The notes under the pieces were generated by a model. The model had not been told where the DNA came from, did not search any database, and saw nothing but the letters and a program-made list of their open reading frames with translations. A program made the position numbers and the translations under genes. From NCBI GenBank assembly GCA_951799425.1, contig OX637402.1, forward strand, positions 2,356,501 to 2,420,500: a stretch of DNA of 64,000 bases, written 5' to 3'. Shown here piece by piece: positions 4,478 to 60,900 of this stretch (positions within the stretch are counted from its first letter, which is position 1; each line of letters opens with the position of its first letter). The DNA comes from Ilex aquifolium (Eukaryota; Streptophyta; Magnoliopsida; Aquifoliales; Aquifoliaceae).

Positions 4478-4610
4478 ATAATGCCTTGTAGATGGTATTA
4501 ATGAATACCACCTACCCGGTGATATTATTTTCATGGGTTAAATGAACGGACGGTATAAACATGCAAATTGACACAAATGCCCTCATTTGTTAAGAGTTTA
4601 CATATACAAA

Positions 4611-20700: not shown

Positions 20701-23700
20701 GCTCAGTTAGTGTTTGCATAAGTTTTGAGTTCTATAGAAGAGGAGGTAGAAAATAATAGATTTTGATACAGAGTACTCTGAAGATACCGAAGAATACGAA
20801 GAACAGCAGCCTAGTAAACAGTGGTAGTTCAAGTAACAAAATGACTAACAACATAAGAGATATCTAATTGAGTAACTGTAAGGTATACCATACTACCAAC
20901 AATAGTGTGATATATAGTAGAATCAGACAATAGGATACCATCAGTGGAGGATTAATGAACATTGAACTGTAATCCATGAAGCACGGACACTCTCAAGTAG
21001 GTTACGTAACCGTGTTAGACACCGATACTCCTCGGACATGTGTCAGATACTTTTTTATCCGTGTCCATAATTAAATGATAAAATTTTAATTTCGGACACG
21101 TGTCCTACACTTCTGTAGAACGTGTTTACTACTATACAATAAATATGTGTTGACATGTAATTAACAAAGCTTAAAAATTTGACTAATAAATATCTTATAT
21201 TATGAGAAAATATATAATTATCAAGACTAGACATGTTAAAGTTGTACTCTAATTATAATAATAAAAGTAAAAAATGCATAAAAGTTTTAAAAAAAAAGAA
21301 TTGAATAAATGAGAGCAATAATTTAAATTACATATGTTGGGTACACGTCTACAAAAAAAATTGATGATTATGATGCTTTAGTCTTAAAATTCACACTAGA
21401 TGGCTAGACATTAAATTTACTTATCATAAAGTACTGAATTTTTTTATGAGTAGTATATCATTATCACTACATTTGTAATAAATTTTATAATCTAATATAT
21501 AAAATACAATTATCTATAACATTTACCCAATGTATCCGTGTCCTACTTTTTTGAGAAACGTCGTGTCTGTGTCGTGTCATATCCATGTCTTGTGTCCATG
21601 CTCCTTAGACTATAATGATGTCTTAACTGTCCGATTATCTAATAAGCGAGCTTGCGGAATAACATTTGATGTATACTTAGATTGAGAGAGAGAGAAACTA
21701 TGGGAGTGGAAGCAATCTCAATCTCTAAGAAATATCGAAGCTGACCTAATCCTTTTATCTCAAAATGATCCTTTAATTGGTTTTTTAATAGCATTATTTC
21801 AACAGTGTTATTACCTATAGTAATCATATTAACATAAAGTAAGAGAGCAATAGAATCCAAAGATGTTGATCGCAGAAAGAGAGCAGAATTATGATCACTA
21901 ACATGAAAACCCAAGTCACATATGACTAAAGAAAAATTGACAAACCATATCCTAGGAGCCTATTTAAGGCTATATAAAGCCGTGTGAAGTTTGCGTACTT
22001 GATCGGGACTATGAGACAATCCCTGGAGTCACATAAACCTCTTCAAATAAATTGCCATAAAGAAAAGCATGTGTATCCATCTGAGACAAGCTCTATTGAC
22101 GAATATTATCCACTGCAATCATGATGCGAACAATGATAATCTTGGCAATAGATGTAACGGTTTCGTTGTATTCTAGGACATATTCTTGAGCAAATCCCTT
22201 GGCTATTAATTGAGTCTTATACCTTTCCACAGAACCACTTGATTTAGTTTTGATTTTATAAACTGTTATGTTTAGTAAATAGAGAATTGGAAGAACAATA
22301 AGAGAGAACAAATTATGAGGCAAAGAAGGTAAAATCATACTCGACCTCTCACTCACAACTTATATTTATAGTGATCCACAAAAATATAAAAGAATAGTAT
22401 ATCCTTAGAGAGGTGTACTTATTACAATAGAAATAATAATAACATATTACTAATACTCTCAACACTCCTCCTCAAGTTAGACTATATATATCATATAATC
22501 GAAGTTTGGAATAAATGGCAGTCAAATGGGAACGATTTAATACTTTGGTGAAAGATATCTGTGAGTTGGTTTTCAGATTTCATCAATGGTGTTGCGGTCT
22601 CTCCATGTAGTAATTTTTCACGAATAAAGTGACAATAACTACTAAACTACCCCTAGTCCTAAATATAATAGACTAAGTTTTCTTGAAAAAAAATTGAGCT
22701 AATATTCGTGGCCAAGGGGAATTGGTTCAAGTATTCGACGAAAGTATAGGAGTGTATAAATTCTACTTTGAAAGTGTCCTTTTTATGCGTTACCATCTAC
22801 TATTTGTGGTGGTGGACTGGTACATATCCACCCTTTGGCATTACTTGCACAAAGTGAAAGCCACATTACACAAAAAACAGGTCTAAGACTAAGAAATAAG
22901 GAAAGAAGGATTCAAGAAGGGTGTTCGGTTCAAGGCAAAGACGAGTAAGCCAACTTGATATTGTGGTATTATTTCCACAAAGAAGAGCTTTCGGATTTTT
23001 GTTACTTCCAATCCTCAGAAAGGATTGAATCAAGGATTTAGAAGTTAAACTTTCTATTAACATCTGTTTCAATTATTTTTTGGGTGTTTTGTTCATGTTG
23101 TACGAGATGAAAGTCTCATAAATAGTTCTCAGATGGGCGTCTGCCTACCTCAACAAAGTCTATGGTTGGGTTTGAAGAATTGCTCGAGATTCAACTGATT
23201 ATGGATCATATTACTACTGAACACATTCATCATCATTATTTTCTGGAAGGCATTACGCATACTGGTTTATACTTTCCTCCAGCATATTATTCTGAAGCTA
23301 ACATTGGTTGGTTAATCCAATCAATTCATCGATGGTTGGTGAGTCTAATGGTCCTAGTGATGATCTTGCATGTATTTCGTGTGTCTCAGCAGTGGATTAC
23401 AAAATCTCACGAATTGACTTGGGTTACTAGTGTGGTCTTGGCTATATTAAGTGCATCTTTTGTCGTAACTGGTTATTCCTTAATTTGGGCCAAATTGTAC
23501 ACTGGGCAGTGAATTCGATATCATCACTTAAGAAAATACTTAGCTTGTTTATTCTTTTCATATAATAGCAGTTCTCCAAATCTTCTGCGTCTCTCATTAT
23601 TTGATCTTTTCAGAAAATAAGTGGTTGGACAAAGCATTATATTTGATACACTGCCATTTGATTGTTACTATTATAGGAATAAATTTAGATATTTATAATT

Positions 23701-26700
23701 GAATAAGTAAAGTATTCACTCGTACACAGGTACAAATTTTTGCATAAAAACCATAATTCACAGTCCTTGCCCTATATTATAATTTGAAAATGTGTTTTGG
23801 ACACAAAAAGTGCCATATGAAGTTTTCCACTTTTCTACTACCCTGCGAAACATAGTTGTTGAAGAATGTATATCTTCTTTTTTGGTTGATTCTGTTCTGT
23901 TTACTCTAGGTCGCTAGTGCAGCCTATGACTCAGAGCACAATGCAGCAATTAATATTTGCAAGGCAGTAAAATCTGCAAATGGTTTAGTGTTTGCCATAA
24001 TTTTGAAGCCTTTCAGCTTTGAAGGACGAAGGCGGCACGATGAGGTATGGTTGCTTGATTGTGAACCAACTTCTCATTGTTTTTCACTGTCAATAATATA
24101 AGGAAGAAGGAAATTACTTATCAGGACCTTCCATTATGCAAATCATGTTCATCTGCCAAGAGAAGTGTTGATGGCTGTTCATTTCTTAAATGGTACAATT
24201 ATTTGTATGGAAAAGTTCCATATAGGTGTGATGCCAAGGTCATTTCTTGGTGGAGACCGTCCTATTTGAAAGCATGATACTAAGGCTTTGGGCTCACTCC
24301 AGTTCAGAGATATTTTATTCTGAGGATAGTGTTTATGGCAGTCCTAGTGTCTTTTTTTTTTTGACAACATGCATGGAATGGATAACAATGCAAGACCAGC
24401 ATCGAACAAGCTTTGAAACTGCCAGACACATTTGACTTTCTGTCAAGCTGTGATGTATGCGACTAACTTTGAAATACTCGTAATAACATGCATGGATATC
24501 AATGCAAGACCAGCATCACTTTGAAACTGCCAGACACATTTGATGTTCTGTCAAGCTGCAAGCACGTCATATATGCGATTTAGTTTGAAATACTCGTTAG
24601 TATTATGTGAGGTTTTTCAACTGGGACTGCAGTGTTTAGGAAACAGCATGTCATATATGCGACTTAGTTTGAAATACTCGTAATATTATGAGAGGTTTTC
24701 CAATAGGCACTGCAGTATGTGGGTAACAATTTTGCTTTTGTGCTCTAGTTCTAGGACTTTAGTCCATGATTTCTATGTTAGTGTAGCCAGCGAAAACATG
24801 ACCTAGATATTGTTTCACTGGCAATTGTCAGCTAACATACCCAATAGATATTGTTGCTGCTGTGGCCTGCAGTACTAGCATTCCTAGGTACACCAGAGTG
24901 TATACTGTCATTTAAATGGAGATTTCACTTTTTAGTTTAAAACATCCACATTATGAGTTGCTATTTGTTGCATGAGGTATGTATTTCGTAATGATAGGCA
25001 GGAATATGTTTGACCATGGACAAAGAGAGGAGTAGCACAAAATTTTGCAAACTGGATTGTATTAGTGTACTCTAGACATACAACTGCAATGACCATTTCA
25101 CACCCTAAGCAATAGAAAATTTGGCCAAACTAATTTATTAAGGTTAGTGTGTGCTTGTTTGCTATGTATACCATATCACATGGCCATAGTTTTACCTAAT
25201 GGTAACAGCTGCCGTAACGATAACAGTAACAGTAACGATGTTTTAATGGATGTTGTACGTAAGGGGCATTATCAGTTATGCAACGGTAATGGAAACTGGA
25301 GGTTGGATTTTTTTCTCAATTCACACCCTTTAAAATTGAATAATGGCCTGATATTTCTCAAATATATCACCAACAAAATAAAATCTAAGTTAAAAAATCC
25401 AAAATACATAAATTTATGCACCAATTTAAACCTGAACTAATAAAAAAAAAAGAAATAAGTCAAAATTTGATTTCCTCCACTTTTGTACCAGGCAATGGAA
25501 GAAACCGCTTAAAAAAATGCACTTAAAACAAATCTAGCATCAATGACAGCACTCTTATAGTCACCAACTTCTTCAATTAGGTTCCACTACTCACTACCAT
25601 TCCTAGTCCAATTACTCCCAGTTTCCAACTTTACTGACTTATTATATACTGGTGTTCGAAGGGGGAAAAAGGAATCTGGGCAAAGCGACTTAAGGGAAAC
25701 GAATCGGTGCTTGATGGGTTACTGCCAACCAGCTTTTAATTCCTATGGATTTTGGAAGGTTCTGGACTGGCTGCAAAACAAAGAACTTGGGAAGGCTGTT
25801 GTTAGCAGAAGAATCTGATCAAGGCCACAAGCAAGTTCTGCTTAGTCCTTCATTATGCTTCAAACTTCTAGAAACTTCAAGATTTGGGTTGTGAAGATTT
25901 TGATATAAGAAACATGTAGATCTTGAGATAAGAGGGTTAAGAATGGACAGAAGTGACTGAAATGTGATTTTTTCGGATTAAAATCATTCGTGTCCGGCGA
26001 TTCACCTGTGTTTTAGGGTTGTATTGGGCCAATTGACCCGTATCGCCCATTACGGCTGTTGCGCACCCATTACGCTACCAAAATGGCTCTTATGAGTGTG
26101 AAAAAAAATTCCAACTGCAAAATTTGGGCCTTAACTTCCCGTTAGGGTCGATTTTTGAAACTATGCTCATTACTAGAATTACTGATTGTTGATTTAGATT
26201 GTTGGTCTTATAAGTTTATGACGTGACAGCCACCAACCTTTATTAGTGATCAAATTATTTCAGAAGGTTGATATTAAACATTTTCGATGAATTAATCAAA
26301 GTGAATTAGTAAGATGGTATTTCTGTAATTATTTTTTTTTGTGTTAATACTATAGATAGGACAATGACCAGACTAGTGACTGCCTATCACATGCTATTTG
26401 GTCTTTCTTTCTCTTTTTAACAGCGCTAACATGGCATCAGAGCATGTTTAATACTGACCCATGTTATTGTGTTGGTATTTGATAGCTTATATTTGGTATT
26501 GGTGCTTAGAGCTCTAGCGGGATTGTTTGTTTTGTTTTTTTGGTTTTGGTTGTCCTCCCTAATATTATTGTGATGGGTGAGAGTGAGCCCGAGTCTCATT
26601 CTATGAAGATGGATTTGGTGTTGTTAATAGGCGAATCAGCAGCAGAAAATTGGAGGACTCTAATTACTTGTTGGGTACTAGGAGGAAGTTGAAGTATATT

Positions 26701-29700
26701 TTGTCTAGTCCCCCATCTCGAGGCAGCATGGAGTACAAGGAATGGGAGTTTTTGAAGTGTTTGTTTATGTCATGGCTATGGAATGGTATGGAGCCATCAC
26801 TTGGTGCTAATTTATTGTTTTGCTACTGCTAAGGGGATTTGAGTTAGTCAGTTAACCATATTGGATGAAAAAATATATCTCCAGTTTATATTATTCATCA
26901 AAACTTGTTTTGTATGTTGCAAAATGATATAATAATGCTGTGAGTAGTACAGTGTCTTCAAAGGGTCATTAGATGAGTTGGATTGGCTTCATTGTATGAC
27001 CACCACTGATGTTGAGATCATTGAGAAACAATGTGAAGAGTCCTATGTTACTAAGTTTCTTTTTGGACTGTATCCAAATCCACCTAATGTGAAGGTATTT
27101 TTCCAAGGAGATGATAGTATCCCTTCATTGAGTATTGTGTATGCTAGAGTTCGTGGTTTTGTACTGGATTCTTATTGGTGTCAAAACTTCAGGAAGGGTA
27201 ATTCAAGTTTAGTGTCTGCTTTAGGGGGACAGGATTCTGATTGCGTAGTGGTTTCGGAGGTCTTAGTTTGGGATATTATAGTTCAAGATTCTAGTTTTTC
27301 GGTAGAGGTCGTAGAAGATATTGAGGTAGATAGAGGCTGTGGTTTTGGTAGTAGCTGGAGTAGATACACTGGTCATGAAAACAGTGTGTAAGTGCTCTAA
27401 TTATCAGGGATAACACCACGTTGTGGACTGTTGCTGTGGTCTACATGGAAACCATGGTAACTTTGGGATAACTTACTTATCAAGTTATGTACTCATTGGA
27501 TACCTCTGTAGCATCTCATTCTGAAGTTAATACTCCCATTCCATCTACTGTTGCATGACTTTTTTTTTGTATATTCAATCAAGGAGCTTTTACATATAGG
27601 TTGAAAAGAAAGATGTCTGACCAGGTTGTGTTTGTTTACAGTAGTGAGAAAGGAATTCTGACAATTTATGAACACGATATTGTAATAAATGGTGATGATA
27701 CAGGGGATACATTTGTTAAACATCCACTTGAGAAATAATTTGCAAATGAAGGACCTAGAGAAATAACAGTATTAAAAAAGAAGAGATATCGTTGTCTCAA
27801 AGAACTATGCCATTCATCATCTATATGATATAGGAGACTTGTTGGTATTGGCAAGTTTATTTATTTGAGAATTACATGATCAACAAGTCCTACACAACAG
27901 TATTGGGAAGGCGAAGGTCATATCTTGAGATACTTGAGGGAGCTCTGGGTAAGGGTTTAGTTTCAAGACTCTATGGGAATTTAGAGATGGTTGGCTTTTC
28001 AGATGCAGGTTGTTCAGGTGACCATCCAGATAGATGGTTCGTGTTAGGTTTTTCTTAACTTGTTTGGAAGACTAAGAAACAAAATGTAATAGTTAGAACC
28101 AGTGCAAAGGCCAAGTATGGCTCACAATATCGGTGAAATGTGGATGAAGTCACAATTACAAGAGGTGTTATTTCTAGGGAAAAGCCTATCAAGATGTATT
28201 GCAATAACTACATGGCTATCATGATGTTTCATAAGAGAACCAAGCACATTGAAGTTGATTGTTATTTTGTTCAGGATATGTTGATAAAGAAGTAGAATAT
28301 TGGACTTTTTTGTTTGGTCAAATACTTAGCTATCAGACATGTTTACTAAGACTGTAGGTAAGGGATATTTTTCTGATCTTTGTAACAAGCATCACATGAC
28401 AGATATCTATGTTCGACCTTGGCGGTGCGTGATGGAGTGTGATATGTATAACAAAGTATTTTTGGTAATTTTTTATTTCTTTATGCATAAAGAGGACAAT
28501 CACCTAATTATTGATTGCCTATCAAATTCTATTTAGATTATCTCTCTCTCAAATAGTCTTACCAACTCTTATATGATCTTCTTTCAAGTTCGTACAATTA
28601 CTTACATGTAGTCGCCATTACACCTTCTGCAGGTCCAGCATTTGGTAGATAAACTTCAGGAGCATACAATTTTCTTTATTGGTAAGAACTTGGAATTCTA
28701 CTTGATGGTGGAACACTAAGTGTAACTATTTCGCTAAATTTTTCTTGATAACGTTTAAGAGATAATTTTAAAGCATTATAATATACATGCCTCACATTTT
28801 GCAGTTAAGAGATCCCTTTGACAAAATTGAATCATATTGCTTGATGTTTGAAATGAATACAAAATTTTAGACCTTTATTGCCTTAGCATTCAACATATTA
28901 TGAGTTTGGATTTTGAATTTTACATTTAGCTATAATTTGTAGCCCTTGCTTTCATATTTTTAATTGCATCACCTACTGAAGCCTTGATTGGTCATATCAA
29001 AATATGATCAGAAACCACATGTACTGCACGTGTGAATGCTTTTGTTTCATTTTTCTTTTCCCTTCTGAAGCAGTTGAAACTTGAATAATTGAATATTAGG
29101 GTTTAGGAAAAGAAATAGGAGAAGAAGAGTGGAAAAAAGAGATTATAAAACAATATTAGGTGTAGGATGTATATTATCTACACCCAACCACCTATTTATA
29201 TTAGATTGACATTGAAGACAATTAAAACATTAGTAAAGTAGAATATAATAGGAAAGCGACCTAGTAAGAAAGGAGAGCAATATGATGTCATCATCGAAAA
29301 AGTGACGTCGGCAGTTTGCGGTGACCAAAGCACGCGTCCAATGTTGATTCACTAGCGATAACCCGTACCTGATGCACGGTGCAATTAAAATAATAATCAA
29401 ATATTGATTGTAGACTCGAAATAATTAAACACTAAAAATGATCGCAATAAGCTGAAAATTTTAAATTTCATCTTTAACACACCACACTTTGCATACATGC
29501 TCAACAAAGTATTATCAATATAAAGATTCTCTCGAAGACAAATTACAATAGAGAGATGGAGAAAACCTAACTTTAATAATCAAAATGCCAGAAATGTAAA
29601 CTGAAAAAGCATAAAATTCATATGTTTGAAACTACATACCTAATTAGAACGCTCAAAAATATTTATTTAAAAATCAACTTGCAAGGTCAGTAAAAAAATT

Positions 29701-32700
29701 GTCCGTGCCAGAAAGCACTGTGTTATGATGAATAAAGAAATCACCAATATTTGATGAAGATATTTTTTTTATCTTTTAAAAAATTTGGAACAAAATTTCC
29801 CCTAAAAATAGGACCCTAAGAAAATATCAACACGTAACACTATTTACAAAATCCAAAGACGACATAGAGACTTAGTATCAACCAATAATACAAAGAAACC
29901 AATCAAATTTAACCACCAAAAAAATTAATTCCAAATCCAAACAAAAAATTTCAATAGTAAGAAAATATAGCAAAAGAGAGGCAAAATAATTGAACACGAC
30001 AATACCCAATTTTTCAATGCAAAACAGATGTGATCAAGCACGTCAGCTATCTGCAATAAAAATAAAACACATGAAAATACTTCCAGCCAAGAAAGTCTCA
30101 AACATCAACATTAAGATACTATGTTTTATTAACTATTCTGGCTAAAAAAAAAAAAAGAGTACTTATAAAAATTGAACTACAACAATCGTTGAAAATGGTT
30201 ATGAAGCATAAGGGACTCACAATAATGTACACAAACTACAAAATTTTCCTTGCAAAGTGCCATATTTTTTGTTGTAAATCCTAAACGTATTTCCTATTGA
30301 AGCGCAAAGTGTCAAAGTTTTTAATTTCGCAAAAAACAAAAAACCAAAATATTTCAAGTAAGTGAATAAGTTATTTATTTCAACCAAATAAGTCGAAATT
30401 GAGTGCCTTCGAACCGTTGAGAGTTGGTGTGATGAGCGAGACAATGTGTAGGGGATAAAGATTTATACCTTCTCAAGATTAAGAAATCAATATGACACCA
30501 CCATAGTTATCAAATCGTGTATCAGAAGGTGTATCGTTTTTTAAAAATAGTGTATCGTATCGTATCGTGTATCGTAAGATACGGCGCAATTTTAAATAAT
30601 TAATAATAAAATATATATACTTTTGAAAAAAAATTATAGACTCATAAAAATATAACATTTCATTAATATTTCACCTACTATTCAAGTCACCAATATAATT
30701 TACTAATTTAAAAAAATTAATGAAGAGTATCAAATTAAATTAATAGTACTTATGTATACTTAAAAGTAAAAAGTTATAATGTAGTGGGGTAGTAAATGTA
30801 ATTCTTTATTATATAACAAAACAACTCAGTCGTGGGTCACGACTCACAAACGAACAGAGACTGAGAGAGAGAAAAGAGGCAAGAGGCGACAGGTGATGAG
30901 CGATGGCGGTGCCGGTGTCGGAGAGAGAGAGAGAAGAAGAAGAAGAAGAAGAAGAAGAAGAAGAAGATACTTGGTGGCAGCGACCTCACAGCGATGAAGA
31001 GAGAGATCGTGAGACAAAGAGAGAGAGATCGTGAGACCTAGGGTTTATCCGAAATTTACAGGTTAGTGTTGCTATTTTTTTAAATTTCAAAAATTTGTTG
31101 ATTTGCTTTTGCTTGGGTGTTTTTGCTGATTTGTGAGTCCACCAAACCCCCAAATTTTGTCTTCATCTCTGTTGCCTTTTCTTTGGCATTTTCTTCTTTT
31201 TATCGATGAGGGTAGTGGTGGACTTTGATTTTGGAGGAATTTCGGCAGTTCCATTAGAATCGTTGGTGGCTGCGACTGATTTACTGTATGCTTTAATAAA
31301 AAAAAAAAAAAATTCGCTTATCGTTTGTATCAGTCGATACGTATCGTATCGTAAAAATGTATTGTGTATCGGACGATACTATACAAAAACGATACAAACT
31401 TCCGATTCGTATCGTTTTACCTCCGTATTGTGACGTATCGTACGATACGTATCGCGTATCGTACGATACTAACGACTATGGACACCACCATGCTCATTTG
31501 ACCTACAAATAATGAAAAATTATCAATTATTAATCTCAATAACAGTATGCTAATAAAAACAAAATTCTCTAGGGGATATAAAAAATTCAATAATAATCAG
31601 TAGCCAAGTTACCAGTTTTTAATTCTGCCATACCAACTACAAAATTTAAAAAAAAAAAAAAAAAGACTATAATTCTACAACACCAAAGCTACCAAAAAAA
31701 ATTCACAATAGACTTAAAAGGAATAGGCGAAAACAAAAGTAATGTTCATAGGATTCTATAACAACAAAAGTAAAAATATTGCGACTTTATTATTTTAGGA
31801 AATTATTCCTAAATTAAAGAATAAAGTGCAAAGCACTAAAATACTAATCCTATAAATCAGACTCTAAATTCTAGAACACTCTAGATATCATCATTCATTA
31901 TTCAAGGAGTCATCTAAGCCTTCAATCCACTGAAATTACTTAGCTCAAATAGGTAATATAATTTCATAGAAAGAGAAAGTATTACATAGGTTTAAGTAAG
32001 TTTAAAAAAAAATAGAAAAATACCCTCCTTATGCGACAAACAAAAATAATTATCTACTGTTAGTTTAAGCTCCAGAACCTATGAAGAGGAATAATTCTTG
32101 TGATAAAATATTTAGCAAAGAGAAAATAGTTAACTAGGACACTTGGAACCCATGAAGAGAAAGAATAAATTAACCACGCAATGAATGAAAAGACAGGATC
32201 ACGTACCCACCATTAATCAGTATGGAAGTAGGGAATTGAGGTAAAATTTGAATGATTCATAAATTTGTCAATAGTGACAATCCAGAAATGGGAAAGAAAT
32301 ACTCCAATAAATGGAATTTTCCTCACCAAGCATTCGCAAGAAGTACCCCTCGATTTTGATAGATAAATACCTATTTCTACCAAGCAACTCAGAATCATAT
32401 TTCACCCAAATAAAATAGCAAACAAAAAGAAAAGAAGATGAATAGTAAAGGAGGAAAATAGGTAGCCCTAACTACCAAATAAGCCTAGTTGAAACCAATT
32501 AACACTAACCTCTTGTAAGCTCCGATACAACCATTAGGTCAATAACTCATAAATCAGTGGAGGCTTAGCCAAGGCCTAAAGATTTAGACAAAGAAATGAA
32601 GAAGAAAACACATAGAAATGAGATAGCAAAAAAAGGGTGTTAATCATCACACCCACTAATCATCACATTTCAACAAATCAAATCCTTCTCAGACATGTTT

Positions 32701-35700
32701 TCAAACATCTTGTGAGCAAGCTCCAAATTGTTGACAGTAGACACAGAGATTAAACTAAAACTCAATTGAACATAAAAAATGACTGCCTTTTTTTCTCTAG
32801 TTAAACATTCTAGTTGTTTGGTTCTAAAATTTAATTTTCGGAACCTATGGCTCATTTGACCGGTGAAGTTCAAAAAGTGAGTTATCATATTTTAGACAAA
32901 TCATGCTTATTGCTTCATAATTTCAGGGGCTAAAATTATTCATCGAGGCAAAACAACAAAGAGATTGAAATCAAGCATTTAAATTGGCCTTTCAAACCTA
33001 AAAATCTTTAAAGTCCACTGCCCAAACCAATTTTGTGCACGTTAAACAACAATCCTAGACAAAGCATACCAATAAAACATAATATTTCTTCTCCTATAAA
33101 TGACAAATAGGTCATGTTTATTTTTCCCCAATCGATTCATAATGAACAAATCCTCAAGACAATTATCAACCAATTAAACAATTATTTACCATGATCACTT
33201 CAGCTAAAACTTCCAGAGGTATGCATGGACAATTAAGATGTCAAATTTGAATACATGGACAATTAAGATGCTTATTAAAATGAGTAGACAATTCATTGAT
33301 ACCAAAATAATAGAAATTCCTATCCTTTTTGTTGCTACTGTGGTATAAAAGAAATTCACTTAATAACAAATGCATTAGATATAATTTTTTGTATTAATAG
33401 TCATATAACTGAAACTATTAATAGTCACATTATTGATTCAGCATAGGTTCTATTTAGGCATCAAAAAAGAAGTGTTCATATGAATATGCATATCGCTAGA
33501 TATGGTTTTTCTTTAAGGATTATTTAAAGGAAAGGTGTGTGTTATGATACTTAGACACATATTATCGAATGAAGCACCGTGTAAAGTGGGTAAGCACTAC
33601 TGACCTGTTCAAGAGTGAGATGGTGCTGTTCATCGTAATATTCCTACGTCTGGCGAGTGGAAAAAGGATGCCTCTTTGATGTTTCCTTCAGGTTCATCAT
33701 TGATCTTGCTCCTATATGATATTGCCCCGGATTTTCACATATACAATAATCATGGCTCACTAATCCTTAGACCACCATTATTAAACTGCTAGCATTTAAG
33801 TTATTCACATGCAACACATTTCAAACACATGTTATGCTCCGTTTGGAGACATTTCATCAAACACATGTTATGCGATAAATTATATCAAACTAAAATAATT
33901 GAATGCAAAAATCCAACCATTCACTCGATTGCTATTCGATCAAAATCCAACTATGGAAAAAATTGACAGAATTGAAAAACCAAAATTGCAAACAAATAGA
34001 GTAGGAAATTCAAAATTTGAAGCACTCACATAACCACTACTCCTCGTCGTCTAATACTCTTTGATGGGCTAACAGTTACACCCAAAAGTTTTAGGCACTT
34101 TTCTATCAACAACCCCTCAATCCAAACAACCCATGATACTTACCCACACCCAAATTTTTAGACCTATAAAAAAAATTACCCAAAAACCAAAAACATTAGG
34201 GGATCACGGTGCACAGAGAGAGAGAACAGTCACGGTGGGCTTTTATGGGGGGTTTGGGGGAGAGAATATGGGGGAGGGGGTGTCTATGAGTGAATCAAGG
34301 GATGGGAAAGAGAGGGGAGGGGAGGACAATACCTTGGTTGTGGCACTGTGGCTCTGGCGGTGGTTCTGTGGCGCTTCGTTGTCTATGGAGAGAGAGAGAG
34401 AGAGGTAGATCGTGTGTCTGTGTGTGCAAAATTGTGTATGTGTCTGTGAATACGTGTTTGTGTGTGTGACGGAGCGCTGCGGAGAGAGAGAGGGGTAGAA
34501 AGAAAAATGAAGGTGATGGTTGTGATGTGATGGAATTGAGGGGGAAAATGTATAGGGATAAAATTCAACTTCCCTTCTGTTTTATTATATAGATTGTGAT
34601 GAGATTTATGGTGATTTTTGTTGAATTTTTTGAAGTCATTTGAATTCACTTTTATATTTTCGAATGTTTTTCGAAAAATCGGAGTTTTTCCTTAGATCTG
34701 GCTGCTTCCTGAAATCCGATGACTGCCAGTGTTAGTTTCCCAAACACAGAGGTGCGAATAGGCTACAGGAGTCCTCTGGTTGTGACCCATGGCTGTTTAA
34801 GGCGTGTGGGAGTGATTCTTGGCTGATTCAAACTGTCGGCTGTATGGTTTCTGGCCTTCTGGGAGTCATTCTTGTGCTACTGGTGTATATTTTGAGCTGC
34901 TGTGTTGGTGTGTTGCACTGGTTTTGTGTTTGGTTTCCTTGGGCTGTGTTTCTGTGTTAGATCCAACTAGATCTGAGTTTTCTTGGCTGTTTTTTGGACT
35001 TTTTTTGTGCTGAAGAGTGACGAATTCACTGGTTTTGGGGCACAACAGTGTGCCGACAGAACTATTTTTGGCTGTATCTGCTTTTGTTTTGGCTATTTTT
35101 GGTTGAATCTACAAATGGGCAGGCTGGATTGCATCTGGGAAGGCTGAATTTTGATATGGGTTGGCTGAATCTGCACCAGGACAGCCTGAATCTGCACCTG
35201 GGGTGGCTGAATTTGCACTTGTTTAGGCTGGATCTACATCCTATTGGTTGGATCTGCATGTTTTTTTATTGTTCCTGATCTCTATGTTGTTGCCTTTGGT
35301 CTCTAGTTAGGCTGTTTTTTGATGCTGCTGGTATGTTTCCTTCACTTTGTTGTGTTGTTGTGGGGTTAATACCGGCAATGTATTCCCCTTTATTGGGCAG
35401 ATCCTTCGGCTCTTCTTGGTTACTGTAATTGTGGTGATTTGCGGATTATTTATCCTCTTATACTCTATTATTGACTAGCTCGTTGTGGGTTTCTTGACGG
35501 TGCCTTGGAATGGTAGTAATGGTCGGCGTTTTGATCGTGGTCATTGCTTTGAGTGGAAGTTTAATTATTGTGGTGGCATAGGACACATTGAGAATTATTG
35601 TTGGGGTAAGTGTGGGAGACCAACATATGCTAATCAAGTTTCTAATAATACTTCTCGGGTACATCAGACCTCTACTCATGGTCCAGTTGTATCTACTACT

Positions 35701-45916: not shown

Positions 45917-45959
<43 letters not shown>

Positions 45960-48900: not shown

Positions 48901-51900
48901 TAGGGTTAGAGAGAAGTCGAGAAGGAAGAAAGAAAAAGAGAAGAGAAGGAGAGAATAATCAGTGTGTAGGCCTTTCCCCTACACTCTTATTTACACTAAA
49001 TTGGTAGTATAGGAATTACAATACTACCCTTCACTAAAAATATAAAATAAGAACTCTTAACACTCCCAGTCAAGTTAAAGCATAAAGATCAAAGATGCCC
49101 AACTTAGAGCAAAGATTATTAACGACAGATTGAGTCAATGGTTTGGTAAGGATGTCACCCAGTTGATCACTAAATTTGATGTATGGTTTGATAATCTTCT
49201 TACACATCAAGAGATCTCAAATAAAATGACAGTTCACGTCGATGTATTTGGTATTCTCATTAAATACCAAATTACTAATAATGAAAATAGGTACATGGTT
49301 GTCACAATGCATCTCCGTAGGATACCCATATCATGAAGGAGAGAACGAACCAACATCCCACACGTAGTGATCCATAGCCCGGTATTCAATCTCTGCACTC
49401 GAATGGAAAATCACATTCTGTTTATTGCTACGCCAAGTAACAAGATTACCACCAATAAACATACAATAACATGAGGTAAATCATCTATAAATAAGACTAC
49501 CTACTCAGTCAGCATCAGAGAAGCTAGTAACAATCATAGATTTTTCTGTATACTAAAGAATACGACAGATAACCTCCAAATGAGGCTTACGAGGACCATG
49601 CATGAACTATGGTTCAAAGTATCGATCGATACCCGATACGAGTTGGCTGAGTTTTATCTGATTCGACACCTGCCGAGATGATACTGTTACACGTTGCGTA
49701 CAAACCCTGAGTGTCGCACGACTCGGCCAAGTCATTCAAGTTATATGTGAGTCAATTCTGAGTCGCTGAGTTGTCATCACCGAATCATCCAATATGGTTC
49801 CGCGATGCCGCGGTATGACCTAAATCTCGTCATATTCAACATTTTCTTTTAGGTCATATCGTCCGATACCGCAACACGACTCTACGACCAACGTGTCTTG
49901 GAACTCTCCGAGTCGATGGCCGATACTGTGATTTTGAACTATGACATGAACAGACTAACCATACCAACAACATAGGTAATATTAGGTTGTGTAACTGTAA
50001 GATAAATTAGGTTACCAACCAACCTCCGATAGCGCTCCACATCATCAAAAACTTCATCACTCTCAACCTAAGAAGCATGGACACGGACACGGGACACGGA
50101 TACGACACGACACGGACACGCCGATACGACATTTCTTAAAAAAATAGGACACGGACACGTTGCGGACACGCTACAAAAAAATTATATTTTATATATAACA
50201 TTATATAATTTATTGTAAATATAGTGATAATGATATACAATTCATAAAAAAATCAGTATTTTATGGTAAAAAAAGCCTAATGTCTAGTCATGTGTGAATT
50301 TTTAGACTAAAACATCCTCATTATAGTCAATAATCATCAATTTTTTTTGTAGAGAATGCGTACCTAATATATAATTTAAATAATTGCTCTCATTTTCTCA
50401 ATTCCTCTTTTTTAAAATTTTTATGCATCTTTTGTTTTTATTATTATATTTGGAGTACAACTTTAATATGTCTAGTATTAATAATTATATGTTCTCAAAT
50501 TTTTAAGCTTTGTTAATCACATTTCAACAAATGTCTATTGTTTAGTAATAAACACGTTCTAAAGAAGTGTCCGACACGTCACCAAAGAAGTGTCCGAAAT
50601 AAAAAATTTATCATTTAATTATGGACACGGATAAAAGAGTATCGGACATGTGTACGAGAGTGTCCGAAGAGTGTCGGTGTCCGACACGGATACGACACGT
50701 GTCCGACACGGATACGTCACGTTCTCGAGAGTGTCCGTGCTTCATAGCTCTCAACATCTAACTTAATTGTAGAATCCATAGGAGTATCTGTTAGACATGC
50801 ACCAAGAGTCCCAGTCTCATATAATAAGTCCATTACATAATTTCATTGGCATAAACTCGTACCTTTTTTGGCCGAGCAACCTCGATGGAATCGAGCAATT
50901 ATTAAATATTTGATATGAAAGTACTTTTTTCAAATGGACCTTGAAGTGGGCAATATCATCTGAGTCATTACCTACTACTAATGTTAATGTCCTTAGTATA
51001 CACAATAAGAATAATAACACTTGTCGAAAAACGACAAATAAAAACTAAATGGTCTGAAGCATAGTTGTTAGTATCGTACGATACGCAATACGTATCGTAC
51101 GATACGTTCCGATACGGAGCCAAAACGATACGGATTGTAGGTCTGTATCGTTTTTGCGTCGTATCGTCCGATACACGATATGCTTTTACGATACGATACG
51201 TGCAAAAGCTGTTTTTTTTTTTTTTTTTCTGGAACGACGTCGTTTTGTATTAATAATAGGCTGATTTTTTTTATCCCTGCCACTGAAACGACATCGTTTA
51301 GTGGCTAGGGTTTACAAAAAAAAAATAAAATCCCTCTTTTTCTCTCCTCTGCGATGTTTGCTGCCTAATTTATTTACAAAGCCAAATAATTTTTTTTTTT
51401 GTGAATTATTACAAAGCTGTAGCTGCCTTTTTGGTCCCTAATTTATTTACAAAGCTATTTATTTGATAATTTATTTGGTCCCTAATTTATTTACAAAGCT
51501 ATGGTTGTGAACTTTGCATTATAATATAAGTGAACTATGTTGATGACTTGAATAGTTGGTGGAGTATTAATGAAATTCTATATTTTTATGAGTGTAATCT
51601 TTTTTTTTCAAAGGTATATATATTTTATTACTATTTATTTAAAATTACACCGTATCTTACGATACACGATACGATACACTATTTTTAAAAAACGATACGC
51701 CTTCCGATACACGATTTGATAACTATGGTCTGAAGTAGAGCGTTGAAAATCATACTTAAGTATAACAGTATTAAGCCAAACATGTGGTGGTTGTTTTAGG
51801 CCATATAGTGCTTTGTTCTGACGATACACTAATTGTTCCTTACCAGATAATGTTAAAGCATCCAATCCAAAATCAATTGTCAATAGGTCAGTGGCTTCTC

Positions 51901-54900
51901 AAATGTGTAAACCAACATTGGTAGTCTTAATTATTTGATGTGGGGTATAAGCTCTCTTACCACCCTCCCTCACGTGATACCCGAGCTCACTGTGGGGTCA
52001 ACAAGCAAACAATCATGCATATTGGGAAATTCAAATGGGTAAGAGACTTAACTCATTGGCCACCCTAGAGGCATAGCTCTGATACCACGTTAGAGCATTC
52101 AACTCAAAATCAATTGGCAATGGGTAAAGTGGTCTCAAGTATATAAATCAACCTTAGTGGTCCTAATTATTCAATATGAGATACAAACTCTCTTAATAGA
52201 TACAACATAACCTGGAGGTTGTATAATACATATCTCCCCCTGGAGATTTTCATGTAAAAAGACATTCTTGATGTCCAATTGATACCAGACCAAAAAAAAA
52301 AGATGTCCAATTGATACAAAGGCCAATCACAACTCACTGCAACCTAAATAAGAACTCTAACACAGTTAAGACGGACAATAGGATAGAAAGTCTCACATAA
52401 TTCAGACTATATGTCTGGGTGTAGCCTTTAGCAACAAGACGAGCCTTCAAACGCTTAACTAAACAATCGGGATGATAATTCAATGTGTAGACCCAACGAC
52501 AATCGACTGTCTGCTTATCAAAAGGAAGAGTAGTAAGGTCTCATGGCTAATTCTCATTAAAGGTTTTCATTTCCTTATTCAAGTTCGTTTCCAACTAGGA
52601 GATGTTAATGCATGTTTCAAAGAGTTAGGAACAAGCACAAAAGACAGAGTTGATACAAAATAGCGAAAAGATGAAGAAAGTCGATGAAAATAAATAAAAT
52701 TAGAAATAAGATGCTTGATACGGTTACGAGAACCTTTCCGTAATGCAATAAATAAATTAGAAGATGATGAACTAACTGACTATGTAAAGGTTTGGACCTC
52801 AGGAGAAATAGGTAATGGTTAGGGAGTTGAAGCAAATGGAACCACCAATATGTCAGTGGAACGACGATAAACCTGTAATGACGGAGTAGTAATCGGGGAG
52901 GAAGAAGAAACACAGTTTGGTACAATAGGCAATAAGAGCTCCTCCTTACTGGGAAATACTAAATTTAGGAAAAAAGTATGACTTGGTGCAAAAAAGAAAG
53001 AAGACGATTCCATAATATCAGCAAGAAATAGGATCGTAGCAGCAATAACTTTTCTGAGTACGAGAATATTGTTGAAAACACACTTGACTGAGCGTGGAGA
53101 AGTTTATCGCGGCCTGTGCCAAGGAGGTAAATAAAAGAAATACAACTAAAGACACGAGTAGTGAGACTAAAAGATGTTTTATCATGATAAAGCAACGAGA
53201 AATGAACTTGATTAGACAAGACGGAAGAAGGCATACGATCAAGGATTAAAATTTCGTTTCGGTGCATTGTTTCGGTCACTAGGAAACGGAACGTTTCGAC
53301 ATGTTTCGGAAACATTTTGACCTATTTCGAAAACAGAATTAAAAAAAATAAAAAATTTAAAAATTATTTTTTCAAAACATTGGTCGAAATATATCATAAT
53401 ATCTTGAAATACCTTGAAACATTCCGAAATAATTGTGCAAATGTATTGAAATATAATAAAATATTTCAAAATATTATGGAACACATCAAAGTATTAGAAT
53501 TTTGATTCCATATCACTGATTCGTTTCGATCTTCTTAGAAACAGAAACGTTTCTGATGCTTCGACAGTTTCGTAACGATATTTTGATCCTTGCATACGAT
53601 TAATAAGGTACACCGAAGTAAGAACAACATCAACCTAATATGGCTTTGAGACATGCTAGGAAACACGTATACGAATACGAACACGGGATGTGGATATGAC
53701 ACCATACGAATACGAAAAATACGGCAAAATTTTAAAAAGTATGATACGAATACGATTAGGATAAGTCTTTATAATATATATGTGTGTGTGTGTGTGTATA
53801 CATACTAAGGATATAAGGGATTAAGAGACAAAATACGTTCAAACTAAAACAATTTATGTTGTTGATGTAGGGACTGTCTAATGGTGTTTTGAATTCAATA
53901 TTCTATATAATTCTAAACTTGAATATATGTCATCCTTCGAATGTTTTCAACTTTTACTTAGCATTTAATTATAGACTTTAACATAAGCCACAAAAAATCC
54001 TTATTCAGGCCAAGCAAAATGTAAATAATTGATAAATCTTGTGATAGATGTGATATTTTTTTTTGGGTAACGGGAAATTTCATGGCCTGTCCTCAGCGAG
54101 TGGAGGCGCACTTATGTCGCTCAAACTCGTAACCTGAGTAGAACTAAGGGCAAACCCGGGTGTATGAACCGGCCCCTCAACTCATACACCAGTTAAATCA
54201 GGACTTGCGTTTCGTCGGGAACTCAAGACCTACACCAGAGACCTGGATACGGTTCATCCAAGTAACTGAGGTCTTGTCCTACCAAGCAGCCACACTATTG
54301 CACGCAGGGGACTTCGAACCCCTGACCTCCCACTGGGAAGCCACAGGCTCTGGCCAACTGAGCTAGCCCAGTTGGTTGATAGATGTGATATTTAAATGAA
54401 CATCTTGGAATAAGCAATCTCCATTTATGTGATTTATGGTTTCTACACAACCCACCTCATTAAGTATAAGGAGAATGTATCCACCTTGGAGATATGCGCA
54501 GTCGACGTATAGTCAACAAGTATCCAACAATTTTAAATAACTTATTAATTATTTGATATGTGCCAAAAGTATATGATACGTATTCGTTAGTATTCGACGA
54601 GTATCAGTATCCGATATGTATCGGATATGAATATGTCACCCTGATCAAAGTATTCATGTTTCATAGGGTACATGCATGTTAAACATTAAAGTACGAGCAA
54701 CATCCAACATTTAATATATGGCGGTGTTTACGTTCGGTAACACCATTTGTTGAGATGTACGTAAACATGTAGTTTGATGGATGATATCATGGTCAGCACA
54801 GAACGTACACAAATGATTGAATATACTTAAGAGCATTGTCAAAATGAAATGCTTTAACACGTTTATCAAATTGTACCCGAATTTCATCATAAAAGGTAAC

Positions 54901-57900
54901 AAACAATCTTTATTAAGTTAAAAAATTTAATATAAAAATGGTCCACGTGCAACGCACGTATGCACCAACTAGTATATAAAATAGCCATAAATATTAGGGT
55001 TTCTAGATTTTTGGATTTTAATTTTTAGGGATTAACATATATATATAGGATAGGGTAGGAATACGAAAATTTTGTAGGTATTCTGTATTCCTACCAAATT
55101 TTTTGCGGAATACGAAAAATTCTTCCATTGGCCTACCTGATTCTTTTGGGTAGCTGGTCAATAGAGTCGGGTAAGGTAGGGTAGGGTAGGGTCGGAATTT
55201 GTGGGTAATCGGAAATTTAACACCCCTAGTCCAACGTGATCATCCACGGAATAGACCAGTCAAACTAGATCTACTAATGTATCCTCAGAAGTTGTCATAG
55301 TAAAACCCACAATCAACTAGGCAATAACAGAGAGTAAGGGGACCAAAAAGTCGCCAAACAACCACAATCACACAAACAACCAAGAGGAGAGCCAAAAAAA
55401 GTGTCGAGGATCAAAGCCACAAACACCCAGCGAAGCAAATCACCCCAACATGCCTCAAACATATCACAGAGACCCAAAAACAGCCAAAAGACAGAGATAT
55501 GAACAGTTCAAACACTGTTCCGAAGCTTTTACAGGGAGCTGACAATCTCCAGTGTACAAAAACACATCCAAGGCAATCTCAGAGGGCTGGGCAACTCAAG
55601 AGGTGCTACACTAAGCCAAATCAGAACCCTAGGAGCCATATCCAAGCAACCAAATAGGAGAAAAAACCAGAATCAAGGGATAAAAGAAAATAGCCCCTGT
55701 TTTTTCGAAAAGCATTCAAAAATAGAAAACTTTACCTAGATAGCTTCAAAAAAATTGGCAAAAATCACCATGAGACTCCCCATAAAGAGCCGATCCAGGG
55801 TGTAGCTTCCGGTGACCTGCAGTTGTTGACGTCATGTTGACGTTAGCATGACATCAGCCACTACAAATTGAGTTGAAGGGCTTCCACAGTGTGTTCCAAT
55901 GTTTTTTGATCTTCGATTAATGCTCTGATATCAAATTAAAATAGAAAAAATAATATTAGGATTAGAGAGAATGACAGCGGGAGGAGAATAAGGAGAGAAT
56001 AATTTGTGTGTAGGCTACGATGCCCTACACTCTTATTTATACTAATCTGATGTTATGAGAATTACAATACTATCCTTCACTACTAAAAATCAGAAATAAG
56101 AACTCTAACAGGTACAATGAAGCTACTTTACTCTGCACCAAGGCCTACCCTCAATTATGTCACTTATCTAGTGTCTGTATTGGTTCTAAAAGAAAATGAA
56201 CCTCTATTGTTTCTCTTATGTTTTTTGTTTATCTAATTGCCAACATTGCATTCTGTTATTTGTTATCTATTTTTGCTTGTCCGACATGCGGAGGCTAATG
56301 CTATGATGTACAGATTCTGGAAGGATATAAAGAAGCAAATATTGGATTTGGAGCTGGTTACACCCTCAAAACTTCAATTGTGCGGGCTATATATGACTGC
56401 CCTTTCCTTAGTGTGGGTGTAAAAGTAAGAAAAAGTTGGTATTCCGCAAGTTTTAAGTACGTTGCAGAAGAATGCTTTATTTCTTCTCATGTGGTTGCTT
56501 AGATGTTAAACTTATTTATGATATACTAATTTCCGATCATCATTGGCAATCGGCATATCATGCTAAGAGGTTACCAGGATTGGTTTCCTTCAGACTTTTC
56601 ACTTAGACAAAAAGCTAGAATCTTCTTTTACCTGCTTATACTTCTGATCTACGGCTGTGCTACTTTTTTGATAATTTTTTTGCTCAGGACTTGAATGGAG
56701 TTGTCATATGCATCCTTGCAAGTTCAGGTGTTATCAACAGCAATGATGTGCGCACCATTATTCAAAATTTTCGCCAAACTACAGAGTGCGAGGGGGAAAT
56801 CGTAGTATCTGTAGTTCATGAACCCACTTTAGAGAGCAACCTTATTGTGACAACCCTTATTACTGTAGGGTATGAATGTCTTTCAGAGTAAAATGCTTGC
56901 TGAATGTTGTATATAGCCTTTCTGGTTATGCTGCTTTATGTCTTTTTTTTTTTTTTTTTTTTTGGTACAAGTCTGTTTTTTTTCTTGAAAGTTGAACTCA
57001 ATAGAGCATCCAACTTAAAACCAATTGGCAATGAGTGGAGAGGCCCTTTAAGCATGTTAACCAACCTTGGGTGATTTGTGGGATACAAATTCTCTTTATA
57101 CCTCTCGCATGGGACCTAGACTCGCACGTGGGGCTAAGAAACATACAAACAAACATGCATACCAGAAATTCAAGTGGGTAAGATATTTGCTCATTGACCA
57201 TCCAAGACCCAACTTTGATATCATGTTAGAGGCTTAGAGCATCCAATTCAAAACCAATTGACAATGAGTGGAAAGGCTCCGTAAAATACTAACCAACCTT
57301 GGGTGGTCCTAATTATTCGATAAGAGATACAAACTATTTTTACAGAGCTTGCTAGTGGCCTTGAACCAATTAGGCGGACTTTATTTGATTTGTTTTTCCA
57401 ATTATCTGGTTAAATTTCTGCATTACATTTCCTAATTATTAAATGTGTATGAGGATTGCAGAAGAAATCTTTGACACGAGGTAAAAACATAAGAAATTTT
57501 TTTATTGCAGTAGATAAAGGCGAGAGTACTTGCTATTTTTTATATTTTGTCTATTCACATTGGTGTTACTTTAATTTTATTATTCAATAGCATATAAGGT
57601 TATGAAACTCTCTCAAACGGTGTGGCTAAAATAATATTTCTGATATAAACTTGCTGTATAATAATATATTTAATATTTAGGTGGCCATGTTCATAAATTA
57701 GGTAAAATAACTTATACCTATTTTCCTCAAGCAGCAGGGCTTGCTAATTGTAACAGTCTATCCAGCTGCCACGTGTCATGCCTCCCTGAGTTCTAGATAT
57801 AATATAGGTTGAAGAACTTTGCCTTCAATGAATGAAAACGTTGGAGCTAACCATAGGAATATGTTATAGGCTGCTGGGCACCCTGCCAGCTGCCATGTGT

Positions 57901-60900
57901 CCATTGTTTTACGCGTATATTTAATGTTAGGTTTTTCTATCCTTTTCAATCCATGGCCTAGCAATGGTGTGCACAAGTTTTGATTAAGAACAAATTGATA
58001 TTATTGTTAAGTCGTTAGTACCTATCTGGAAATTGGAATTACCAAATTCGGGCTTTTACATCTGTTAAGATTTTTTTCCTCATCACAGAGAGAGAGAGAG
58101 AGAGAGAGAGACACACACACACACACACACACACAGAGCGAGAGGGGGAGAGAGAGAAGAATATTGTTTCATGCCCTCTACATCTTCGTTGCTATGGTTT
58201 CTGGGTTCAGTGTCAGTTATGACAATTTCTTGTCTCCTTATGATAACTGTTGTGTTATAGTTTAATTCCAGTTATGTATACTTTTGATTATCTTTCACTT
58301 TTTTTTCCTCTTAATTCTAATGCTTAAATGTACTCTGATTATCAGTTTTTCTGGACGGGAGACTACTCATAAAAATAGCATATTCTCTAGACTGGCAGAA
58401 CACTTTCCATTTATTTTCAATCTCTTGAGGAAGCACCATCCACAGTCTCACAACACTAAAGAAAACTATTCACCTGAGCGTTCATGTCTTTCTGAGATGA
58501 TAAATAGACTAGAGTCCACTGAATTGCCTAATATAGTCCCCGTGGACGGCACAGCTGAAGGTTTTGGTATTTACTCTGCCGAACTCCAGATGTTATTGAG
58601 CAACAGTGGTGACGAAATATATCCTCTTAGGTTTTTAGTTTCCTCCCTTCAATTCATCTTCAGATTCTGTAGTACCAAATGTGTCCACAAATTTCGTACT
58701 AATTTTTATTATTGTAGAGGACATGATAGTAGTTCTGAACAAAGCGAAGCTGAATTCTTAGAGGCCAGTGCAGATTCTTCCATGGCTTATGACCGAAACA
58801 CTGGAGGTACGTTTAGGGTAGTTTTAGCATTATTTGGTTCACCTTTGGCTTTGAATCAAGGAACAAAATTTCGTTTCGGTGCATTATTTCGATCACCTAG
58901 GAAATGGAAATGTTTCGACGTGTTTCAAAAAAGTTTCGACCCATTTCGAAAAAAAAATGAAAAAAAAAATTAAGAATTATTTTTTCAAAATATTGATCGA
59001 AATATATCAAAATATCTTGAAATACCTTGAAACATTCCGAAATAATTGTTCAAATGCATTGAAATATGACAAAACATTTCGAAATATTAGAATTTCGATT
59101 TCATCACTGATTCGTTTCGGTCTCCTTGGAAACAGAAACGTTTCGGTCTCCTTGGAAATAGAAACGTTTCGGATGTTTCGACCGTTTCGAAACGGTATTT
59201 TGATCCTTGCTTTGAATCATTTATAAATAGTAAATAAATTGAATAATCACGTTGGAATTCATTATAGGAGCACCCACTTTTCAAAGGGAGATGCTTCTTA
59301 GACATGATATGGGTCCCGGATATCATTTTGCACAGGAGTGGGCCACCAAGGGGGCCACTGATTCTGGAGCTACTCCAGTGCTGGACAGTCCGATGCTTTA
59401 CAGACTTCCCATCGGTGTGAAACCTTCAGAGTTGAAAGATGGTCCCAACGTCTCAAACACTAGTGATCATCCAGAGAAAACAACAATAAATGATATAAAG
59501 GCACAGCCTCAGGTTACTCCAAGTATGCCTTTGGATCCACCGACTGATGCAGGTTTTGAAGCCGTAATGGACATATTTAATAACACATCTGTGTTACTGA
59601 AGGGAGATAACACTAATGTTTCCAAGAAGCAAGGAGTGCTTTCTGTTCGTGCTGCATCTATGCTGGTAAAGGTGTTTCCTTCTTATGCTTTCTATGCTAA
59701 TTGCTCTAGCTAGAAGGCATATAAATATCTGAAGATCTCTCTGTTTTGCAAGTTATAATAATGCTTGACCTTTCAGCGTATTACACATCTTTAGCATTGT
59801 AGTTGAAGAAAGAGTTCTTTCTTTTATCTTCTGATACATTGAATACTTGAAGGAGAAATAAAGATATTTTCCTAGCAGAATGGATTTCACTTTTTTTCCT
59901 TAAATTTGATAGCTTCTAAAATGCCTTGATGAGGTTAGTAATAGTAATTTATTACAGTTAGTGTGGTAAGATGGTGTAAAACCTTGAAGCTATTTACTTG
60001 TAGGGTGGTTAAGTTTCAAAAGTAATTTGAAGTGGTTGCCTTAGTTCCACTATGAAAAGCCAATAATTGAAGCTTTGTTTCCTCCTATATGTCGGTGATA
60101 TCAGAATCGTATGATGACTTGTGTCACTGGAGTCAAATTACACACGAATTTTTGTCTCGTGATGGCACTGAGATCCAACATAGAGACAATATATCGAATA
60201 GGGTATTAGGGTATGGGCAAGAATTAAACACACAGTCGGCACACGAGTTTACAGGCCAACATGACCTGACCATTTACTTCTTAGGCAAGTACAAAGGAAT
60301 CCGGCTAAGGGTTTGTTACAAAACTTGCCCAATCTCTCTTGGGTTGTTGCAGATCATGGTATGTGTATTTAAAGCAAATACATGGCGGTTACAACCCAAC
60401 TGCATAGGCAATGCTGACACCAACCGGCTTTAGCCAAATTAGCTATGCAGTTGACATGCTAGCACCAATCAGATTCGCCCTAAGGGTCTGGGTTGGTTTT
60501 CCCACGACCACCACTCATGTCTGAGCCAATTTGAAGCGCCCTTGCTTGTTGGAGCAACTGGCCCACATGATCAGCACACGTCATCCTTGTCTGCTGATAG
60601 CATCTGATTTCCCTTGCTAGCATGCAAAGCCATGTCTAGCCCATGGTTTGGCCTTTCAAGTATGCAATGCACCTTAATCAAAGCCCACACGGCTATTCCT
60701 TGTTTGCTTGCTTGTGCCCAACGTGTCCATGATGTGCTGCCTCCCTCAGCCATGCATGAGACTTCCGGGATAAACAGGTCCCACCATACCTCGACCCCAC
60801 ATTTCTCGGGTCTCAACTTTTACATGTCTTGCCCACACCCATGACAAACATTCTTGGGGGCGTGTCAAGGCTAAGGGAAATAAGGGTTGCCACCCAAGCA

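Follow-up and report, generated by a model that had tools for sequence, protein, structure and literature searches.

Subterminal repeats are a regular feature of hAT transposons, and most hATs have them near their tips (PMC10368747). The transposase of Ac binds subterminal AAACGG repeats (PMC3260210). The BED-type domains of hATs have many specificities, often for CGG or CGC, and the motifs of four hAT-encoded ones match their own subterminal regions (PMC8097297). We analysed a stretch of 64,000 nucleotides from Ilex aquifolium (assembly GCA_951799425.1, contig OX637402.1, positions 2,356,501 to 2,420,500), hereafter the window, in which an earlier note had described small elements with 8-bp target repeats and dense arrays of a short CG-containing word just inside both ends, the word differing by family. 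Eleven elements were recovered at or near the positions given there and were sorted into six families, A–F (two, two, four, one, one and one element, respectively; Table 1). The layout as such is ordinary for hATs, and the notable part is a switch of the word, slot by slot, between sister elements. Taken as a whole, the elements are very probably non-autonomous hATs with arrays as putative docking sites, in which the word changes while the layout stays.

The genome (800 Mb in 103 contigs, window included) was searched with a profile of DUF659 (PF04937). The search gave 533 first-look candidates, of which 150 were scored, and 11 of the 150 listed loci (L100–L110) were read on their downstream side. 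The full-length relatives with a hAT transposase and matching ends that the earlier note had proposed to look for were found: A109, A110, B102 and B103, each flanked by a perfect 8-bp repeat. They form two sister pairs (A109/A110 and B102/B103). Protein identity is 64.5% and 60.3% within the pairs, respectively, and 29–31% between them.

In all four full elements, the exact 7-letter words are confined to the terminal 250+250 bases (15/15, 11/11, 13/13 and 8/8). The word itself differs between sisters. Counting both ends, A109 has 17 GACACG and 1 GATACG, and A110 has 0 and 16. B102 has 23 CGATAC and 0 CGATTC, and B103 has 3 and 16. When sister ends were aligned, most slots stood at equal coordinates. 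The fit was closest for the right ends of A109 and A110, and the left ends of B102 and B103 aligned poorly past ~100 bases. A single word base (position 3) differs in 19 of 19 slots of the A pair, with A110 reading GATAC (14), GGTAC (4) or CAGAC (1). In the B pair, it is position 4 that differs, in 14 of 15 slots (GATTC in 11, GAGTC, GATTT and GAATC in one each, and one unchanged GATAC). At the remaining four positions of the word, 5 of 76 bases (A pair) and 3 of 60 (B pair) differ, counts that are lowered by the removal of slots that were not word-like (1 of 20 and 1 of 16). Columns outside the slots differ in 66 of 159 and 37 of 115 cases. As identity within the pairs is about twice that between them, the same kind of switch is seen in two distant lineages. 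Searches of an open-access library yielded no description of slot-by-slot word switching in hAT ends. The earlier idea of arrays that expand and take on a new word within a constant layout is thus supported as regards the word and the layout. Expansion is not needed, because the change takes place within slots that mostly stay at their coordinates.

A rival reading is that the arrays are homogenised by copying among the repeats (slippage, gene conversion) and that words turn over without a driving change in the transposase. Some words do stand in tandem-like runs (50079–50131 and 50677–50722, both in A50068). Moreover, the miniature elements of family A carry mixed arrays in 30 of 30 loci (8–18 GACACG together with 2–5 GATACG), and copying could sort two words either way. 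It is difficult to reconcile with homogenisation that most slots keep their coordinates while the spacers differ, and that the change is of one base in place, seen on both strands and at each of the two ends. If whole units were copied, spacers would tend to travel with them and the spacing would shift. We therefore regard homogenisation as unlikely. The mixed arrays are a possible intermediate of a word switch.

Mutation bias was also considered, with C-to-T decay of methylated DNA as the source of the switch. Decay was compared in copies of families A (23), B (13), C (11) and D (8), window copies included; seven A loci and one D locus with unclear ends were excluded. C-to-T was the commonest change. 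Its rates per CG/CHG/CHH site were 0.042/0.044/0.040 in A, 0.030/0.032/0.021 in B, 0.077/0.054/0.113 in C and 0.103/0.095/0.109 in D, compared with A-to-G rates of 0.002–0.018. No consistent CG excess of C-to-T change was found in the copies of A, B, C and D. The A pair (GACAC/GATAC) is a C/T change, and E copies hold GATATG next to GATACG, as expected from decay. The B pair (GATAC/GATTC), however, is an A/T change, and in the A pair one C of GACAC differs in 19 of 19 slots and the other C in 0 of 19. This makes mutation bias a very improbable cause of the switch.

Alternatively, the words could serve a host factor, a promoter or a methylation signal rather than the transposase. The window elements are rich in CG, with CpG at 0.8–2.6 times the expectation compared with 0.57 for the whole window, which fits such a role. 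A shared factor would, however, favour one word, and the word varies between sisters and between lineages; nor is CG-specific decay consistent. We give this reading little credence.

The preferred reading is that the words are bound by the transposase. By analogy with the known systems, they are likely its binding sites. Several copies of the N-terminal zinc finger of the transposase would dock on the arrays just inside the ends, and docking would locate and pair both ends ahead of cutting at the tips. Every transposase lineage would read its own CG-containing word. If the specificity of the finger shifts, the slots would stay and nearly all of them would change the same base, so that the layout would outlive the word. 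Whether a changed finger drove the switches seen here is evenly balanced in our judgement, and co-evolution of word and finger has about an even chance.

A CxxC is common to the N-terminal regions of all four full elements, as are the zinc His, an Arg four residues ahead of it and a Cys further on. The Hermes finger makes its base-specific contacts through the side chains of Q64, S66, N67 and R70 (PMC10368747), which lie at positions −7, −5, −4 and −1 relative to His 71. When these contact positions were mapped, the sole difference among them was at −5 (T/F) in the A pair and at −1 (N/H) in the B pair, in fingers with a spacing to the last Cys unlike that of Hermes. Both pairs differ elsewhere in the finger too. 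The contact differences are hence a testable suggestion from the sequence and, alone, no evidence for a finger-driven switch. A more far-reaching reading, which we hold tentatively and at somewhat less than an even chance, is that DUF659 hATs carry a readable recognition code. The constant Arg (four before the zinc His) would go with the CG-framed word, single changes at, for example, −1 or −5 would switch one core base, and the array of ~15–20 slots would follow in place at both ends. One genome would then preserve a large number of solved finger/word pairs, and the mixed arrays would be intermediates.

Ends like those of the window families were found at 8 of the 11 DUF659 loci read. L102 has an exact family B end, and L103 and L104 have B-like ends with another word, the tip being damaged in L104. 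At L109, the end is exactly that of family A, and at L110 an A-type end is combined with a different word. A further 0.8–0.9 kb was read at three loci. It showed a C-like end in L101 (2 mismatches in 22) and CATGG tips in L100 and L108, the former with the word CGTTTCG and the latter with a further word, CGGTAACG. Arrays were evaluated by comparing the commonest CG hexamer per element with 100 dinucleotide-preserving shuffles, a strict test because shuffles retain the high CpG. Seven of the eight loci were above the shuffles (full elements used where read).

PF04937 was present in long exons of all four full elements. The C-terminal exons of A109 and B102 were scanned for PF05699, and both exceeded the 21.4-bit cut-off (47.7 and 58 bits). 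In the exons scanned, no Pfam family other than PF04937, PF05699 and zf-BED was listed at E values up to 0.01. In B102 and B103 (loci L113 and L114), two copies of a ACGACGTCGT-like palindrome stand ~200–280 bases from the left tip, directly inward of the array there and outside the words; one of the B103 copies has one change. This palindrome is perhaps a promoter element.

Families A, B, C and E are therefore supported as kin of DUF659-type hATs, since the same genome holds relatives that have matching ends and bear a transposase. For E, a genome copy (L099) additionally matches A110 at both ends (76% and 68%). Family B is plainly an internal-deletion derivative of a B102-like element. Families D and F are most likely the same kind of hAT element, judging by their ends, 8-bp repeats and layout. 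The hAT assignment proposed earlier thus stands for A, B, C and E through their relatives, and is extended to D and F by analogy only. In contrast, the description of the families as otherwise unrelated was too strong: the tips of B, C, D and F are alike by eye, E matches A110, the sister of A109, and families A, B, C and E are all linked to the same type of transposase.

Other hATs of the genome were examined for comparison. A PF05699 profile search gave 1396 first-look candidates, of which 150 were scored and the best 30 (L009–L038) inspected. Their domains are presumably of the Ac/ricesleeper-like type, as judged by eye. A fuzzy scan of 1.5 kb on each side of these 30 loci found no ends of families A–F except a weak D-type match (3 mismatches) in L033, and the loci were dropped as transposase partners. 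Some CG hexamer occurred at least five times per 180-base downstream stretch in 27 of the 30 loci compared with 5 of 60 flank controls, many of the 30 being close copies. The leading words at 14 of these loci were GCCCGC, AGCCCG, AGCTCG, AACCGA and CGGGTA, and L028 and L033 had none. As CG-word repeats are found at PF05699 loci too, the layout is not special to the DUF659 type. The earlier view of the layout as unusual is not upheld, given also that subterminal repeats are usual in hATs (PMC10368747, PMC3260210).

Table 1. Elements of families A–F in the window and full-length relatives in the genome (C1, C4 and C9 are contigs; percentages are sequence matches)
Element	Position	Strand	Length	8-bp repeat	Word	Match and remarks
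A20974	20974–21608	- (tentative; relative to A109 as matched)		ACTGTAAT/ACTATAAT, 7/8	GGACACG	bases 555–627 to A109 element 3701–3781, 77%
B30502	30502–31480	-		GACACCAC, 8/8	CGATACG	both ends to full element B102, reversed, 85–86%
C37238	37238–37586	.		ATTTCTTA, 8/8	CGTTTCG	end of DUF659 locus L101, 78% over 76 bp
C40115	40115–40464	.		ATATTACC/ATATCACC, 7/8		
F43207	43207–43851	+				left end only; extent from genome copies matching to ~43851
D49608	49608–49943	+		GCATGAAC/ACATGAAC, 7/8	CGATAC, GAGTCG	
A50068	50068–50747	-		CTCTCAAC, 8/8		bases 1–126 to A109 element 3795–3661, 82% over 135; pieces of 18–32 bp to the other end of A109
B51060	51060–51727	+		GTCTGAAG, 8/8		internal-deletion derivative of a B102-like element; both B102 ends, bases 1–291 at 79% and 440–668 at 88%
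C53240	53240–53592	.		CATACGAT, 8/8		
E53656	53656–54666	-		6/8		bases 16–126 to A110 element 3919–3810, 73%; nested dispersed repeat
C58857	58857–59209	.		CTTTGAAT, 8/8		
A109	C1:37161082–37164876		3795 bp	perfect		
A110	C9:26927598–26931525		3928 bp	perfect		
B102	C1:17582808–17586541		3734 bp	perfect		
B103	C4:22614049–22618352		4304 bp	perfect		

The dense CG-word arrays described earlier stood above all 100 shuffles in 8 of the 11 window elements, i.e. in every A, B and C element. The hexamer counts against the shuffle maximum were 6 vs 5 (A20974) and 15 vs 6 (A50068), 17 vs 7 (B30502) and 16 vs 7 (B51060), and 9 vs 7 (C37238), 8 vs 7 (C40115), 6 vs 5 (C53240) and 12 vs 7 (C58857). In the window, D49608, E53656 and F43207 were not above the shuffles (5 vs 6, 6 vs 8 and 3 vs 4, respectively). 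One genome copy each of D (L081, 8 vs 6) and F (10 vs 6) exceeded the shuffles, and the E copy tested tied (5 vs 5). Genome copies of F have the word CGATCC and the right end CCTTG, and complete ones extend ~180–240 bases beyond the matched part to a second array. The first-look candidate copies genome-wide, unconfirmed, numbered 2163–2199 (C), 1258 (A), 791 (B), 563 (D), 223 (F) and 140 (E).

The 8-bp flanking repeats of the window elements were perfect in six of eleven, as had been reported, matched at 7/8 in three and at 6/8 in one; F43207 has no right end. Genome copies, scored with ends fixed from the query element, agreed: perfect repeats flanked 23 of 30 A, 11 of 12 B and 7 of 8 C copies. 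The remaining B locus fits after a one-base shift and the remaining C locus has 7/8. Of the remaining seven A loci, one has 7/8 with the ends moved by one base and six have no repeat. Perfect repeats were found in 4 of 8 D, 3 of 6 F and 1 of 5 E copies, with a further three, one and two, respectively, at 7 of 8. A50068 has a sequence-identical copy on contig C1 that is flanked by a different repeat, which means that family A moved recently. The target bias of hATs is T at position 2 and A at position 7. Of the 57 perfect repeats, 39 have T at position 2 and 27 have A at position 7 (P=2e-8 and 0.011, for an assumed background of 0.32 each). In family D, A was at position 7 in none of the four perfect repeats.

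Empty sites were read for B51060. Its joined flanks were compared with the genome, and 40 of 226 candidates were scored. Two were the window's own halves, and the other 38 of 38 span the junction unbroken. All eight empty sites that were read hold a single 8-mer with no insert (two are exactly GTCTGAAG). The sites thus collapse to one 8-mer, in line with the earlier note.

The proposed YWNNG form of the ends fits throughout the window elements, the left end of A20974 (CCATG) being the sole exception. The textbook hAT end is YARNG, a frequent form and not a defining one. C and F (CAAGG) fit it, and B (CATAG), D (CATGG) and A and E (CTATG) do not. Families A and B are off YARNG although their full elements encode PF05699. 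Another reading is that the families come from different superfamilies, for example P-like ones, and are alike by convergence. P-like elements also make 8-bp repeats. Moreover, the CATAG and CATGG tips fit the P-type end in the form that we assume for it, and the A and E tips fit neither textbook form. However, the relatives found for A, B, C and E encode DUF659, and A109 and B102 do not class as encoding a P-type transposase, since they carry PF05699 above the cut-off. No relative of another superfamily was found among the DUF659 and PF05699 loci examined. Convergence of different superfamilies is hence most improbable.

The ends of D49608 were kept at 49608–49943 because genome copies end in CATGG...CCATG, although the top offset of the script was 49611–49934. 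A genome scan with the D-end pattern gave 611+607 matches, and the same pattern reversed, as a control, gave 2+1. Among the 100 places listed of 1218, D ends that face each other were counted by hand: 5 pairs are ~330 bp long and 12 are 1.17–1.37 kb long, and there is thus a longer D subfamily. Two longer pairs (5.0 and 7.7 kb) were rejected as whole elements, as both of their ends are of the same type.

Several observations weigh against the account given here. Just two sister pairs were read whole. At three of the 11 DUF659 loci (L105, L106 and L107), no end like those of the window families was seen within 2.2 kb, and the L104 array does not exceed its shuffles (3 vs 4). No transposase partner was found for families D and F, a whole F element having been sought at the sampled hAT loci only. 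The BED finger is weakly recognised: PF02892 reaches 19.3 bits in B102, below the 20.6 cut-off, and is not listed for A109, A110 and B103. One differing position of the four Hermes contacts per pair is no better than chance at such divergence. Finally, divergence in A (0.036 vs 0.024), B (0.018 vs 0.012) and C is slightly higher within the words than elsewhere in the element, and in D it is lower. Constraint after insertion is thus not visible.

The surroundings of the elements were also inspected. Positions 49300–53250 of the window are a degenerate Ty1/copia-like element on the minus strand, which contains D49608, A50068, B51060 and C53240. Four small hAT elements are thus clustered within one older copia-like element, and E53656 follows close after. 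RVT_2 matches in the copia-like stretch around B51060 reached 29.9 and 24.4 bits, below the 31.6 cut-off. Inside E53656, a dispersed repeat of ~325 bp (54057–54381) is SINE-like by eye, and 40 other genomic places match this part alone. Positions 56314–58650 show exon-like stretches of a host gene by eye, with C58857 in or near an intron; two pieces of this region compared with Pfam gave no match. The stretch at 23174–23512 translates to a protein of the cytochrome b6 (petB) type (PF00033, 64.5 bits) and is probably an old plastid DNA insertion, judging by its translation. A tandem repeat with a 77-bp unit and 5.6 copies lies at 4608–5046.

When the specificity of a transposase changes, many sites at both ends have to follow, and it is difficult to observe such protein–DNA co-evolution as it happens. 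The genome studied here contains sister elements with intact slots, a word switched by one base and the encoding protein attached. The relation of word and finger is open to counting and to binding tests, and most of the first-look DUF659 candidates are still unread. A practical rule is suggested as well: the subterminal word may tie small hAT families to their transposase.

The closest described system is Ac/Ds, a maize hAT (PMC3260210). It shares with the present elements the 8-bp repeats, multiple copies of a short CG-containing word within the terminal 200 bp and small derivatives; those of Ac/Ds are moved by the full element. The Ac/Ds word is bound by the Ac transposase, and the same would apply to the words described here. 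Ac/Ds differs in having another word and, by its protein, in being another type of hAT; the parts of that source used here describe no sister pair with a switched word. In Hermes, BED fingers dock on several subterminal repeats (PMC10368747), and the same role is proposed for the present fingers. Hermes, however, comes from an insect, its asymmetric ends hold few AAGT sites and its CCHC finger is spaced differently, whereas the present elements have long CG-word arrays at both ends. The CGG-binding proteins derived from hATs come mostly from animal hAT-19 elements (PMC8097297). There, the motifs of proteins were compared, and here it is the slots of sister elements.

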